Assembly (NCBI GenBank): GCA_002551355.1
Contig: NTHE01000025.1
Span: 1-64,000 of the forward strand
DNA: 64,000 nucleotides
Direction: 5' to 3'
Source: Streptomyces sp. man185
GTDB taxonomy: Bacteria; Actinomycetota; Actinomycetes; Streptomycetales; Streptomycetaceae
Shown: positions 15,156 through 49,939 of the stretch, piece after piece
Numbering within the stretch: position 1 is the first letter of the stretch
How the letters are laid out: each line of letters opens with the position of its first letter
The notes under the pieces: generated by a model
What the model was told of the DNA's origin: nothing
The model's database searches: none
Seen by the model: only the letters and a program-made list of their open reading frames with translations
Translations under genes and position numbers: made by a program

Positions 15156-16637
15156 TCAGCTGCCTCCGAGCCGGAACAGGGAACCCACGGTCCGGGCCAG
15201 CACGCACGCGTCCTGCCACAGCGACCAGGTCTCGATGTAGTGGTTGTCGAAGCGGGCCCGCTCCTCGATCGAGGTGTCGCCGCGCAACCCGTTCACCTGG
15301 GCCAGCCCCGTGATGCCTACGGGCATCCGGTGGCGAGCCTGATAGCCGGGGTGGGCGCGGCTGAACTGCGCCACGAAGAAGGGGCGTTCGGGTCGGGGGC
15401 CGACCATGCTCATGTCGCCGCGCAGGACGTTCCAGAGTTGCGGCAGCTCGTCCAGGGACGTCCGGCGCAGCGTGCGGCCGACGCGGCTCATCCGCCCGTC
15501 GGAGGCGACGTTCCAGCGCGTGGCCGACTCCTGGACGTCGGCGGGCCGCAGCGTACGGAACTTCAGCAGGACGAAGGGACGTCCGTGCCGGCCGACCCGC
15601 TCCTGCCGGAAGATCACGCCGGGGCCGTCGGAGAGCCGTACGGCCAGGGCACAGGCCGCCATCACCGGGGCCGCCAGCACCAGGGCGACCGCGGCGAGGA
15701 CGGCGTCCATCGCCCGCTTCACCCCGTGGCCGAGGCGACGGTTCGTCCCGTCGTGCAGCGGCTGGGCGGTGAAGCCCCACAGGTGGTCCGGGCGGCCCGG
15801 CGCCGCGGGGCCGGCGACGACGCCGGGCCCGGTGATCAGCCACACCCGGCAGCCGTGCCCGGTGAGGAGGGTGAAGAGAGCGGCGCCGTCCGGGGTGGCC
15901 TCGGGCGGGGCCGTGAACACCGCGTGCCGCACGCTGTTCTGCACCACGGCCCGCCCCACCTCCTGGGGCGACCCCAGGACCGGCAGCGGCACGGCGTCGG
16001 ATGCCGTCTCCTGGCTCTCGTCCCCGGCCGCCGGGGCGGCGACCAGACCGACCGGCCGCAGCCCGTACCCGGGGTGGTCGTAGAGCGCCGCCGTCACCTG
16101 ACGGGCCAGCGGCCCCTGGCCCACGACCAGTGTGGACACCGGGCGGCGGACGGCGGCCCGCCGCCGCGCCCGGTGGACCGCCGCGCGTCCGGCGCAGGTC
16201 AGCGCGGTCTGCGTACCGGCCCCGTACACCAGCACTGCCCAGCCGAACGTCTGCTGCGGGGCCCAGGCGTCCAGCATCTCCATGGTCACGTACCACTGGA
16301 GGAGCGTGAGGCCGAGGAGCGCGGGCAGTTCGGTCAGGACCGAGGGGGACAACCGCATCCGGTACAGGCCGCGCCAGGCGAAGAGCAGCACCTGTGCCGC
16401 CGCCTGGACGGCCGGCAGCAGCCAGGGCCACGCGACCGGGACGACCAGGGCGAACGTCACGGCGGGGGCCAGGGCGTCCGCGCACAGGAGCGGTGCGAGC
16501 CTGCCGTACCGGACGCCCCGGCGCTCGCCGGGCCGCACCTGCGCACCACCACCGCTTCTTCGCGGCGGATGAACCGTGTGAGCCTGCACGGCTGTTGCCT
16601 GGCCGGCTCCGGGAACCGGTGCACTCTCCATCGTCAT
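15156..16637 (-). CDS. Polyprenyl glycosylphosphotransferase (initiating transferase)
   Basis: A 493-residue protein of the WbaP/CpsE type that transfers a sugar-1-phosphate to undecaprenyl phosphate, the first step of repeat-unit assembly. The N-terminal half has four or five hydrophobic helices and a Rossmann-like cytosolic domain ('STLVVGQGPLARQVTAAL'). The C-terminal catalytic domain shows 'RAMDAVLAAVALVLAAPVMA', 'FRQERVGRHGRPFVLLKFRT', 'RRTSLDELPQLWNVLRGDMS', 'MVGPRPERPFFVAQF' and 'GITGLAQVNGLRGDTSIEER', all family hallmarks. It overlaps the upstream glycosyltransferase by ATGA. Confidence 0.95.
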   Translation of the reverse strand: MTMESAPVPGAGQATAVQAHTVHPPRRSGGGAQVRPGERRGVRYGRLAPLLCADALAPAVTFALVVPVAWPWLLPAVQAAAQVLLFAWRGLYRMRLSPSVLTELPALLGLTLLQWYVTMEMLDAWAPQQTFGWAVLVYGAGTQTALTCAGRAAVHRARRRAAVRRPVSTLVVGQGPLARQVTAALYDHPGYGLRPVGLVAAPAAGDESQETASDAVPLPVLGSPQEVGRAVVQNSVRHAVFTAPPEATPDGAALFTLLTGHGCRVWLITGPGVVAGPAAPGRPDHLWGFTAQPLHDGTNRRLGHGVKRAMDAVLAAVALVLAAPVMAACALAVRLSDGPGVIFRQERVGRHGRPFVLLKFRTLRPADVQESATRWNVASDGRMSRVGRTLRRTSLDELPQLWNVLRGDMSMVGPRPERPFFVAQFSRAHPGYQARHRMPVGITGLAQVNGLRGDTSIEERARFDNHYIETWSLWQDACVLARTVGSLFRLGGS

Positions 16638-17800
16638 CGCTCGGTGCGCTTCCTCGTCGTGGGACAGGACATGCCGACAAGTTCCTGGTAGAGACCGGCA
16701 ACCGCCCCCGCGGTCCGTCGGACGTCGAAGGCCGCGCGGGTGTGGCGCAGGGCCCGGCGGGACACCGCCTCGCGCAGGTCCGGGTCGGTGAGCAGGGCGG
16801 TCAGCGCGGCGGCCAGCGCCGGCGGATCCTCCGGTGGTACGAGACAGTGGTTCTCGTGGCCGGGCGGCAGGCTCTCCCGCGCGCCGTTCACATCGGTCAT
16901 CACGACGGCGCGGCCGCAGGCCATCGCCTCCAGCGGGGCCAGTGCCATGCCTTCCCAGCGCGAGGGCAGCACGAGGACGTCCGCCGCGTGGATCCACGGC
17001 CGCACGTCCTCGCAGGCTCCGGTGAACAGCACGCCCGGCGGGGCCGATTCCTCGAGACCGTCCCGGTCGGGCCCGTCGCCCACCAGGACCAGCCGGGCCC
17101 CGGGCACCCGCATCCGTCGCCAGGCCCGCAGCAGGACGTCCTGGCCCTTCTGCCGGGTCAGGCGGCCGACGCAGACGACCAGCGGGGCGTCCCGGTCCAT
17201 GCCCTCCAGTAAGGGCAGCGCGGCGCGGGCCTCCGCCCGGACCGTGCGGTCGCCGGGGCGGAAGCGGTCGAGGTCGATGCCGTTGTGGATGACCGACCAG
17301 CGGGCGGCGATGCCCGCCTCCTGCCCGGTGCGGCGCTCCGACTCGCTGACGCAGAGGATGTGATCGGCCCAGCGCGCGCCGAACCGCTCCCAGCCGAGCG
17401 CGAGTTCCGCGGTGCGTCCGCCGACCGCCTCGAACGACCAGGCGTGCGGCTGGAACACCGTGGGGACCCGGCCGCGTACGGCGATCCGGCCCGCCAGTCC
17501 CGCCTTGGCGCTGTGGGCGTGCACCACGTGCGGGCGGCTCGCACGGACGATCCGGCGTGCGGCCGCGACCTCACCGGCCAGCCGCGGCCCGGGGGCACGG
17601 GTGGCGGACCAGCCGTGGACCTCGGCACCCGCTGCCGCCGCCCGGAGGGCCAGCGGGCTCCCGGGCGGGCAGGCCACCACGGGGCGCAGTCCGGCACCGG
17701 CCTGGGCCCTGACGAGATCGGTGACGACCCGGGCCACTCCGCCGTCCACGGGCTGAACCAAATGAAGGACCGTCAATTGTCTTTCTTCAGTACGACGCAT
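16634..17800 (-). CDS. Glycosyltransferase family 4, first gene of the exopolysaccharide operon (TTA codon)
   Basis: A 388-residue GT-B enzyme: 'LHLVQPVDGGVARVVTDLVRA' at the N-terminus, 'PHVVHAHSAKAGLAGRIA', the donor domain 'LVVCVGRLTRQKGQDVLLRA', 'LVLVGDGPDRDGLE' and the E-x7-E motif 'SRWEGMALAPLEAMACGRAV'. It contains one TTA leucine codon (17210-17212, in 'ALPLLEGM'), which in Streptomyces needs the bldA tRNA, so expression of this gene, and through coupling the operon, may be developmental. ATG 17800 was chosen; in-frame starts up to 17953 would place the N-terminus inside a large palindrome and look non-coding, but no strong ribosome site precedes 17800, so the start is uncertain. Confidence 0.85.
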   Translation of the reverse strand: MRRTEERQLTVLHLVQPVDGGVARVVTDLVRAQAGAGLRPVVACPPGSPLALRAAAAGAEVHGWSATRAPGPRLAGEVAAARRIVRASRPHVVHAHSAKAGLAGRIAVRGRVPTVFQPHAWSFEAVGGRTAELALGWERFGARWADHILCVSESERRTGQEAGIAARWSVIHNGIDLDRFRPGDRTVRAEARAALPLLEGMDRDAPLVVCVGRLTRQKGQDVLLRAWRRMRVPGARLVLVGDGPDRDGLEESAPPGVLFTGACEDVRPWIHAADVLVLPSRWEGMALAPLEAMACGRAVVMTDVNGARESLPPGHENHCLVPPEDPPALAAALTALLTDPDLREAVSRRALRHTRAAFDVRRTAGAVAGLYQELVGMSCPTTRKRTER

Positions 17801-17840
17801 GTGCAGCACGCACGGCTCTCTTCGCTCAATCCGGTGAGTA

Positions 17841-17999
17841 AGGCCCACCGGCAATTGGGGGGCGGCGTCGCGGGGCTGGGCACGCACATCTGCGGCGTTG
17901 TCGTCAATCACCATGGCTCCGCCATGCCTCAATCCTCCGCCTTGCAGCTGCACGCACCCAGCCCCGCTCCTTCTTCCACCCCCAATTGCCGGTGGGCCT
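17841..17999. repeat. 159-bp nested palindrome with 21-bp perfect arms
   Basis: The arms 17841-17861 and 17979-17999 are perfect inverted repeats of 21 bases (core AGGCCCACCGGCAATTGGGG). Inside them sit a second perfect 10-base pair (17871-17880 CGGGGCTGGG with 17957-17966) and a central CATGGC-TCC-GCCATG hairpin, with partly matching sequence between. It lies 41 bases upstream of the predicted start of the exopolysaccharide operon, in its leader or promoter. It could be a miniature inverted-repeat element, a decayed small insertion or a structured leader. I see no clean target duplication. Confidence 0.85.
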
Positions 18000-18299
18000 A
18001 AAGCCGAAATGCACTTTGGCAGAGTTGTGGCGAAATCGTGCGCGTGACTCGCTCATACGACCACATGGGGATTACGTGCGCGGGAGGGCCGTTCGAGTGG
18101 TCGGGCGACAGATCTGCGCGCAGCGTCGAAGGGACGTCGCCGAACTGCTGGTGAAAGGGCCTGCGGGGGCTCCCGTACGGAATTGCGCGGGTGTTCCGTA
18201 CGTGTCCGGACGGTTATACGCTCAGCTTTTTCCCGGCCTGCCGCACTCCGCCGATCGGCGCACCGGATGGCGGCGCCATCTATCGGCCGGCCAGGCCGG
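18000..18299. other. Non-coding region upstream of the exopolysaccharide operon
   Basis: These 300 bases between the palindrome and the stop of the isochorismatase-like gene should hold the exopolysaccharide promoter (minus strand). It is slightly less GC-rich than the genes. I see no convincing -35/-10 pair, operator or ORF. Confidence 0.6.
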
Positions 18300-18890
18300 T
18301 CAGGCCGTTTTCGTGGTTGTGGCAGCGGCGGTGAAATCGACGTAAGCGGCGCGGGCGACGATCTCCACCTCGTCCCCCAGAGCCCATTCCGCGACCCGTG
18401 ACGCCATCGCGGCCGGGACCACGTCGCTGATGTCCGGCGCGGCCGGGATGTCGTATGTGGCGTGGGCGTCGTGCGGAAGGACGACCCGGTAGTCCAGTTC
18501 CAGGGCCCGGCGGGCGGTGGCGAGCACGCACATCTCCGACATCACCCCGCACACGGCGAGCGCCCGGACGCCCGCCGCCGCCAGGACGGAGTGCAGGGAC
18601 GTCTCCTCGAAGCCGTCGTCCTCGCTCTTGCGGATCACGGTCTCGGCCGGCCCCGTGCACACGGGCAGGTGCAGCTCCCACCCGTGCGACCCCGGCTCGT
18701 CGGGCTCTCCGGCCGGGCCGTCGTTCTGCAGATGGACGACGAGCGCCCCGGCCCCCCGGGCCCGCCCGACCAGACCCGTCACCCGGTCCAGCAGCCGGGT
18801 CGCCTCGGGCACGGCGGCGTCACCCGCGACGAACGCCGACTGGACGTCGATGACGAGCAGCGCGGTGACGGGGGCGGGGCGGTCGGTCAT
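18300..18890 (-). CDS. Isochorismatase-family cysteine hydrolase
   Basis: A 196-residue alpha/beta hydrolase of the isochorismatase/nicotinamidase superfamily. The catalytic triad is visible as D15 ('LLVIDVQSAF'), K88 ('VIRKSEDDGF') and C121 ('GVMSEMCVLATARRAL'), and the cis-peptide region precedes the cysteine. Members hydrolyse amides or enol ethers (nicotinamide, isochorismate, carbamates); the subgroup with 'GVMSEMCV' is mostly uncharacterised, so no substrate is assigned. It appears monocistronic; about 100 bases of G/C-rich direct repeats (CGGACGC) separate it from the polyprenyl synthase stop. Confidence 0.88.
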   Translation of the reverse strand: MTDRPAPVTALLVIDVQSAFVAGDAAVPEATRLLDRVTGLVGRARGAGALVVHLQNDGPAGEPDEPGSHGWELHLPVCTGPAETVIRKSEDDGFEETSLHSVLAAAGVRALAVCGVMSEMCVLATARRALELDYRVVLPHDAHATYDIPAAPDISDVVPAAMASRVAEWALGDEVEIVARAAYVDFTAAATTTKTA

Positions 18891-45016: not shown

Positions 45017-45915
45017 ACACCGAGACGCTGCTGCGGGACGTGCGCGCCCGGCTGCACGACGGCGGCCTGCGCGCGTGCCTGCTGGTGCGGGACCTGGGCA
45101 CGGGGGAGGAGCTGGGCATCGAGCCGGACACCGAGCTGCCGTCGGCCTCCCTGGTCAAGGTTCCGCTCGCGCTCGCCACGCTCGAACGCATCCGGCGCGG
45201 TGAGCTGGACGGCGCGACCCCGCTGGAGGTGAGGCCCGGTCGCGTCTCCACGCCGGGCCCGACCGGACTCAGCCGCTTCCGGCACCCCGCCCGGGTCGCC
45301 ATCGACGACCTGCTCTACCTCAGCACCTGCCTGAGCGACGGGACGGCCGCCGACGCGCTGTTCTCCCTCACCCCGCCCTGCCTGGTCGCCGATCTCCTCC
45401 GGGAGGCCGACCTGCGCGGCATCACGGTCCGGCACCGCACGGAGGAGCTGTTCGACACGCCCGTCGAGCGGTTCGACGCCGACCAGGTGCACCTCGCCCA
45501 CGCGCTGGCCATCGACGCCGGCACCAGCGGCCGCGGCCACCGGGTGCCGCAGCTCGACACGACCCGCGCCAACTCCGGCAGCGCACGCTCCTTCGTCGAC
45601 CTCCTCCAGGCCGTGTGGACTCCGTCGAAGATCCACCCGGAGGTGGCCGAGCGGCTGCGCGACCTCCTGGCGCACAACGTGCTGCGCCATCGGCTGGCCC
45701 CGGACTTCAGCTCGGACGCGAGCCGTTGGTCCTCCAAGACGGGCACCCTGCTGAATCTGCGGCATGAGATCGGCGTCGTGGAGCACGCCGACGGACAGAC
45801 CTTCGCCATCGCCGTCCTGACCGAGTCGCTGGTCCCGGCGGGCACCCAGCCGGGCGTCGACGCCCTGATGGCCGAGGCCGCCCGGAGCCTGCGCGATCAC
45901 CTTCGGCAGTTCTAG
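45013..45915 (+). CDS. blaB: BlaB-like penicillin-recognising serine protein (cytosolic)
   Basis: A 300-residue protein with a beta-lactamase-like fold but no signal peptide. It keeps S46-L-V-K49 (SxxK) and K242-T-G244, but the SDN motif is S108-D-G110, so Asn is missing, which argues against efficient hydrolysis. In S. cacaoi BlaB is needed, with BlaA, for induction of the lactamase and is not itself a lactamase; a sensing role inside the cell is the best guess. ATG 45013 overlaps the blaA stop (ATGA), so the two are co-translated. A hairpin follows the stop at once. Confidence 0.87.
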   Translation: MNTETLLRDVRARLHDGGLRACLLVRDLGTGEELGIEPDTELPSASLVKVPLALATLERIRRGELDGATPLEVRPGRVSTPGPTGLSRFRHPARVAIDDLLYLSTCLSDGTAADALFSLTPPCLVADLLREADLRGITVRHRTEELFDTPVERFDADQVHLAHALAIDAGTSGRGHRVPQLDTTRANSGSARSFVDLLQAVWTPSKIHPEVAERLRDLLAHNVLRHRLAPDFSSDASRWSSKTGTLLNLRHEIGVVEHADGQTFAIAVLTESLVPAGTQPGVDALMAEAARSLRDHLRQF

Positions 45916-45955
45916 GGCCTTTCGTCTGGATCAGGCCGGATCCGAACGAAAGGCC
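45916..45955 (+). terminator. Terminator after blaAB
   Basis: GGCCTTTCGT (45916-45925) pairs perfectly with 45946-45955, with a smaller GGATC/GGATCC pair in the loop. It starts at the last base of the blaB stop. Confidence 0.75.
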
Positions 45956-46034
45956 TGAGGAGTCCGCTGCCCGTCGGGTCCGACCGGTCACGCGCCCCCG
46001 AGGTGGCCGAGGCGTGAAACATCGCCGAACAAGT

Positions 46035-49890: not shown

Positions 49891-49939
49891 GTGCGCTTCC
49901 TCATCCGTCCACCAGACGCGAACGGATGAGGAAGCGCAC
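49891..49939. terminator. 18-bp perfect hairpin at a convergent gene junction
   Basis: GTGCGCTTCCTCATCCGT (49891-49908) pairs perfectly with 49922-49939 around a 13-base loop. The right arm and part of the left arm lie in the last codons of the DUF779 gene (stop at 49901-49903), so the terminator is built partly from coding sequence. Confidence 0.85.

Follow-up and report, generated by a model that had tools for sequence, protein, structure and literature searches.

Is the long palindrome in front of an exopolysaccharide operon of Streptomyces sp. man185 a structured leader that evolved to control the operon, or did it arrive there as a mobile element? The palindrome, at 17841-17999 of the window (the whole 64,000-nucleotide stretch of DNA analysed here), is real and exceeds chance. 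As the preliminary description stated, the outer arms (17841-17861 and 17979-17999) are complementary at 21 of 21 positions, and a central 6-bp hairpin is present. The inner arms (17870-17893 and 17944-17967), given there as 10 perfect bases, are perfect over their outermost 11 bases but only 79% complementary over their full length. The distance to the first gene, given as 41 bases, is 40 (between 17841 and the ATG at 17800), and the TTA codon reported in that gene occurs once, at codon 197. The minus strand, whose folding had been proposed as a check, reaches -114.8 kcal/mol (z = -9.3), a stability equalled by 0 of 200 shuffles, and the plus strand reaches -96.4 kcal/mol (z = -7.1). The 64-kb window contains perfect 18-base inverted-repeat seeds with a spacer of at most 150 bases at only two sites, and 20 windows shuffled by triplets contain none. 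The second site (49891-49938) is a terminator-like hairpin with a short loop, and looks ordinary.

Table 1. Features of the palindrome and its surroundings, in window coordinates.
Feature	Position	Strand	Basis
MITE-like palindromic element, 157 bp	17842..17998	.	inverted repeat, empty orthologous sites, other copies
Left target-site duplication, TAA	17839..17841	+	sequence; single copy (minus-strand TTA) at empty sites L220, L221
Right target-site duplication, TAA	17999..18001	+	sequence; single copy at empty sites
Left terminal inverted repeat, type A, GGCCCACCGGCAATTGGGGG	17842..17861	+	related ends AGACCGACCGGCA on IS in L379
Right terminal inverted repeat	17979..17998	-	inverted-repeat comparison
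Left inner arm, alike in Streptomyces type A and type B copies	17870..17893	+	
Right inner arm	17944..17967	-	
Conserved structured tip (model R1), GCAAGGCGGAGGA...GACGACAACGCSGC, common to Lachnospiraceae	17882..17953	-	cmsearch, covariation, strand test
Terminal hairpin of tip, CATGGCGGAGCCATG	17912..17926	-	
First operon gene, glycosyltransferase (PF13439, PF13692), one TTA codon (197)	16634..17800	-	Pfam; assumed start
Conserved operon upstream flank, cut off from gene by insertion	18002..18066	-	aligns with L220, more weakly with L221

Comparison with orthologous operons indicates that the palindrome is a mobile-element insertion and not an evolved leader. We aligned the two closest orthologs of the first gene, those of G005 (87% identical) and G019 (85%); the next orthologs are 68% identical and below. 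In both genomes the orthologous upstream region (loci L220 and L221) aligns around the site and lacks the element. On the minus strand the empty sites of both orthologs read CTTTACTCAC, and the window reads CTTTA, then the element, then TTACTCAC. The target triplet is single in the empty sites (TTA, minus strand) and duplicated as TAA/TAA (plus strand) in the window. The outermost pair, 17841/17999, thus belongs to the TAA duplication, so that 159 bp stands as the length of the palindrome and the element itself measures 157 bp (17842-17998). It contains no transposase gene, and the open frames that cross it reach far beyond. Apart from the insertion, which divides it, the upstream region is conserved in G005; in G019, 173 unrelated bases lie between the empty site and the block preceding the gene. 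The upstream region of the exopolysaccharide operon has therefore been altered by an insertion that is absent at the matching site in G005 and G019.

The element is also dispersed. Seven clear copies occur in its own genome (the window copy and those on contigs 85, 99, 149, 78, 138 and 159), together with two diverged palindromes on contigs 8 and 56 (L270, L271). Model R1, which scores the window copy at 86.5 bits (cmsearch, E = 7.1e-22), gives ten matches in this genome: these nine and L272 (35.5 bits), which we treat as chance because no outer palindrome is seen there. Strong matches (E ≤ 1e-20) are found in 16 of the 61 genomes of the genus, the own genome included. The dispersed copies that the preliminary description proposed to look for thus exist, but the 21-base arm suggested as the query finds few of them when used alone, because the outer arms vary between copies. 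The mobile-element reading offered there is borne out by these copies, by the target duplication, by the two empty ortholog sites and by IS elements with similar ends (below).

The competing suggestion in that description, a structured leader as the reason for the palindrome, fares poorly. Among 119 Streptomyces-type copies, 116 are intergenic according to a simple codon-usage gene finder, and where the neighbouring genes stand in tandem, 28 copies have the fold strand in the direction of the genes and 34 have it in the opposite direction. Orientation is therefore unbiased, and the tip does not act as a general cis-regulator. An E-value search of Rfam 15 with positions 17000-18800 gave nothing at gathering score: the best matches, to microRNA families, fell far short of it (at most 37.9 bits, where 137 are required). 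We consider it most improbable that a riboswitch-like leader or attenuator evolved in this 5' region to control the operon: the fold is very stable on the operon sense strand, its tip covaries and it stands close to the ATG, but the palindrome is missing from both aligned orthologous upstream regions, copies of the module adjoin other genes in both orientations, and Rfam recognises none of it at gathering score. What survives of the leader idea is a strand-specific, covarying tip whose better strand is the operon sense strand; conservation before orthologous operons does not. An effect of the inserted element on the operon is plausible. Should transcription of the operon begin upstream of 18001, the mRNA would gain a hairpin of ~160 nt in the 5' UTR, perhaps with altered stability or translation.

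The ends of the copies bear on how such an element might move. Judged by the sequences of the outer arms, Streptomyces has two or more IS5-type classes of ends, and Lachnospiraceae has others. Among 183 unique copies with enough flank, 30 carry type A ends (GACCGACCGGCAATTGGGG-like) and 95 type B ends (GGGCCTGTCGTTTGGATC-like) on both sides; the rest comprise 9 copies with one recognisable end, 35 low-GC copies with other ends and 14 that fit neither class. The window copy has type A ends. Identical 3-bp flanks border 18 of the 30 type A copies (2000 shuffles gave a mean of 7.6 and at most 14), the triplet being TAA in 12, TTA in 3, TCA in 2 and TTG in 1, and are lacking in the other 12; T.A stands on both sides in 20 of 30. 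Exact CTA/TAG flanks border 45 of the 95 type B copies, and 50 have other flanks. Subgroups of the IS5 family target TNA or YTAR/CTAG in ISfinder, and the TAA/TAA flanks of the window copy are of the first kind.

Do insertion sequences with such ends exist? In Streptomyces atratus OK807, type A-like ends ~985 bp apart, each flanked by TTA, lie around an open frame of 288 residues, and this frame matches the IS5 family transposase model NF033580 of NCBIfam above its cut-off (E = 8.2e-41; locus L379). At L041, two type B-like ends, which depart from the search pattern at 1 and 4 positions and each carry CTAG, lie 897 bp apart. Between them are pieces of an IS4/5-type transposase, with PF13340 above its cut-off (E = 1e-15) and PF13586 below (E = 1.9e-5). 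Type B-like ends also adjoin frames that resemble an IS4/5-type transposase by eye (L053 and L064) and, at L063, similar DNA. Lone type A ends followed by other DNA were seen at six further S. atratus OK807 loci (L380-L385), apparently truncated copies. A pattern search of the own draft genome found no IS with the exact ends of the window copy; none with type A ends turned up when a crude end finder was applied to 10 of the 51 IS5 matches in that genome, and none with Lachnospiraceae ends in 30 loci among the matches listed, where the pattern has a high control background. Genome G277 has 40 tips, yet only one weak NF033580 match. A transposase beside a plasmid copy (L011; DDE_Tnp_1_6, DDE_Tnp_1, DUF772) lies outside the element and was not taken as a partner.

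The explanation we consider best, with a probability of roughly 0.87, is that the palindrome is a non-autonomous, MITE-like element mobilised in trans by IS5-family DDE transposases and carrying an independently conserved tip. MITE-like is apt because the ends resemble those of the IS5-family IS of S. atratus. Such transposases would recognise the terminal inverted repeats and mobilise the element in trans. The window copy inserted at a TAA target (TTA when read on the minus strand) within the conserved sequence upstream of the operon. The tip is conserved independently of the ends, the same module being found inside palindromes with quite different IS-type ends.

Prokaryotic MITEs, as characterised in the main text of a review (PMC10969869), are shorter than 500 bp, have terminal inverted repeats and target direct repeats, are mostly intergenic, are moved in trans by IS elements and give transcripts that form hairpins; that main text mentions neither Streptomyces nor Actinobacteria. 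The element described here has 157 bp and no transposase gene of its own, its arms match at 20 of 20 positions within the element, a TAA that is single in the empty sites borders it left and right, it is present in seven clear copies in its own genome, its site in the window is empty in G005 and G019, and type A-like ends are found on the IS of L379, the window copy's own end variant having been found on no IS. It departs from MITEs in general in that the interior is conserved and the ends vary between lineages, with a shared tip that crosses phyla. To move, MITEs should need only their ends, and their interior is expected to drift. Mobilisation by DDE transposases thus leaves the conserved tip unexplained.

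Other known systems offer partial parallels. The element resembles IS5-family IS in its ends and target duplications (as in L379 and L041) and differs from them in lacking a transposase; conversely, with model R1 no part of L379 scores as a credible tip (best 14.2 bits, E = 0.068), and the same holds for L041, L053 and L064. ERIC and Correia/NEMIS elements are intergenic palindromic mobile repeats that form hairpins in mRNA and can affect RNase cutting, and by description alone the element is like them in being an intergenic palindromic mobile repeat; we know of no cross-phylum tip under different ends in either. REP elements, which are 20-40 bp long and mobilised by RAYT (Y1) transposases, are likewise palindromic and form a hairpin with unpaired bases, but the element is 157 bp long and has a target duplication. 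Moreover, PF01797 (Y1) has no match in 7 of 12 carrier genomes, the own genome included, and we reject Y1/RAYT mobilisation as the general mechanism.

What, then, is the tip? Copies with differing ends have in common a stretch of ~60-72 nt, which in the window is 17882-17953 on the minus strand. Between copies from Streptomyces and copies from Lachnospiraceae, which show no match in their arms, the tip aligns at up to ~90% identity. When plasmids were searched with a Lachnospiraceae element (E ≤ 0.01), all 24 records obtained were from Streptomyces (best E = 6e-13); the 20 matches listed all fell inside query bases 71-133, the tip, at 79-91% identity, and none reached the outer arms. In six low-GC loci, Rfam recognised only a TPP riboswitch and tRNA, both elsewhere in the loci. 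Searches of the literature by tip sequence or topic, with most subscription journals outside their reach, gave no description, and an older one may exist; the available text of PMC10969869 and PMC1590033 describes neither the element family nor the tip.

For structural comparison, 124 cores were reduced to 64 picks, of which 55 dereplicated copies (42 actinobacterial, 13 low-GC) were used in alignment A1; eight loci, and cores outside 100-111 nt (long-loop copies, 28 of 144), had been left out before picking, and L027 was omitted from alignment A2. RNAalifold reports compensatory changes in 17 of 23 pairs. In a tip alignment of 54 sequences, 93.7% of cells pair, against 79.6% in shuffles, and both sides have changed in 154 cells, against 47.6. 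The covariation score is 0.419 (shuffle mean 0.158; slid partners at most 0.103) and there are 39 further pair types, a number reached by 18 of 500 shuffles; this test takes a structure predicted from the same sequences, and its statistics ignore relatedness. One copy has A-U in place of G-C at column pair 38/72. The motifs GAGGA and GACGA may be drawn as two tandem G-A pairs flanking one G-C pair.

The fold has a preferred strand. All 55 dereplicated copies fold better in the window-minus orientation than as the complement (consensus energies -60.5 against -34.1 and -25.5 against -10.8 kcal/mol). In the inner arms of 133 Streptomyces-type copies, wobble pairs favour the same orientation by 478 to 15, with much of the excess at few positions, and in the outer arms by 167 to 73 (139 copies). 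In the low-GC copies the bias is weak, at 29 to 19 in the inner arms (32 copies) and 36 to 23 in the outer arms (31 copies). Such asymmetry fits an RNA, but a fold of single-stranded DNA is likewise strand-biased (-63.5 against -55.2 kcal/mol for the window copy), so that the asymmetry is compatible with ssDNA as well. We favour a tip that acts as a single-stranded hairpin, RNA or ssDNA, and helps the element; it would be kept because this hairpin, as RNA or as ssDNA exposed in replication or transposition, favours the spread of the element. The RNA and ssDNA versions are about equally open. A conserved interior tip that covaries and prefers one strand points to a single-stranded-structure function in bacterial MITEs, which lies outside the usual account of these elements.

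If the tip acts as RNA, for example in a transcript that binds a host protein or the transposase, different MITEs would carry it as a common module. This is quite possible, at somewhat less than even odds: every dereplicated copy folds better in the one orientation, G-U and U-G pairs are as frequent as Watson-Crick pairs at several tip positions, and unpaired purines are conserved, but with no bias in gene orientation expression would be haphazard, ssDNA yields the same kind of asymmetry, and promoter and transcript are putative.

A hairpin of ssDNA, used on one strand only in transposition or replication, is a further possibility, only slightly less probable. It would produce the same strand asymmetry, and it draws on the behaviour of the arms, which change in concert. 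In type A (32 rows, a few of which resemble chance matches), the same departure from consensus appears on both arms 30 times (shuffle mean 4.8, maximum 15), and at 59 positions the change is confined to one arm; in type B (100 rows) concordant departures number 162 (shuffle mean 41.9, maximum 69) and changes on one arm alone 123. Concerted change of this kind is expected if DNA hairpins form and are corrected by template switching. The known users of ssDNA hairpins are the Y1/HUH transposases, however, and these are without a match in the same 7 of 12 carrier genomes; to our knowledge DDE elements of the IS5 type do not need a hairpin.

The main sceptical alternative starts from the same concerted change. 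Arm concordance and tip conservation could both be by-products of recent spread and template-switch correction, with no selected function of the tip, and several copies per genome do share an R1 score and may thus be nearly identical. We judge this distinctly improbable: the tip is common to copies from Streptomyces and from Lachnospiraceae despite the lack of a match between their arms, and some of its invariant positions are not in Watson-Crick pairs, so that correction should have erased them. A stronger form of the favoured reading is that the tip is a selfish module that has become coupled to many systems of IS ends in Actinobacteria and Firmicutes and spreads its palindromes through a conserved factor. 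This we regard as unlikely. If true, the hairpin, acting from one strand as RNA or ssDNA, would drive or license spread by binding a conserved host or transposition factor. Model R1 provides a means of finding the factor with which the tip interacts.

The distribution of the family is patchy, as that of mobile elements is, in the collections searched. A scan of a genome contig collection for a 19-base core pattern found at least 119 stretches, and among the matches listed at least 20 stretches belong to low-GC genomes (titled Lachnospiraceae, Blautia, Anaerobium and similar), in a copy set that is enriched for exact matches to CATCTGCSGCGTTGTCGTC and counted irrespective of relatedness between copies. 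Among the matches listed, both tip halves are seen in 16 of 20 low-GC loci and only half a tip in the other four (L144, L189, L198 and L217); a Mycobacterium locus among the 119 stretches (L120) has no second half. High-copy carriers by R1 (E ≤ 1e-4) include S. atratus OK807, with 44 matches, and Actinacidiphila bryophytorum, with 47. At the same threshold and with stricter filters, 8 of 198 genomes of the own phylum match: three belong to the genus, and the other five, from outside the genus, have a diverged tip (for example GCAAGGCGCGAGGA...GACGAGCAACGC); the R1 search of the phylum of G272, also run with stricter filters, gave matches in 6 of 199 genomes, G272 included. Plasmid matches to the window element at E ≤ 1 comprise 36 records, 32 of them from Streptomyces, and in 6 one place covers at least 80% of the query. 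Among phage records nothing matches the window element at E ≤ 0.01.

Several minor observations concern variants of the tip and of the ends. Diverged tips occur in Actinobacteria of other families outside the own class (L252-L256, L259, L260, L262, L265, L267), some of them within CTAGTG-like palindromes, and one genome (G145) has five matches. A plasmid search with the diverged element L252 gave no match at E ≤ 0.01, and with its tip alone nothing better than E = 0.5 among the matches listed. In six G272 variants (L312-L317) a Watson-Crick helix takes the place of the G-A-rich tip middle, and GCAAGGCG and AACGCGGC are kept; these variants and the own-genome palindromes L270 and L271 all retain GCAAGGCG and AACGCSGC around a different, plainly helical middle. 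On IMG/VR contigs labelled viral, a tip of the Streptomyces/Lachnospiraceae type is present at three loci (L386-L388), two of which (L386, L387) have ends of yet another type, TATAGT-like; one IMG/VR contig bears the diverged tip twice (L389, L390), and a further locus, L395, was not accepted. Within the window itself, a short palindrome at 45912-45958 has type B-like ends (CTAGGGCCTTTCGTCTGGATCA...GGATCCGAACGAAAGGCCTGAG) and no tip, and is probably a shortened relative of the element.
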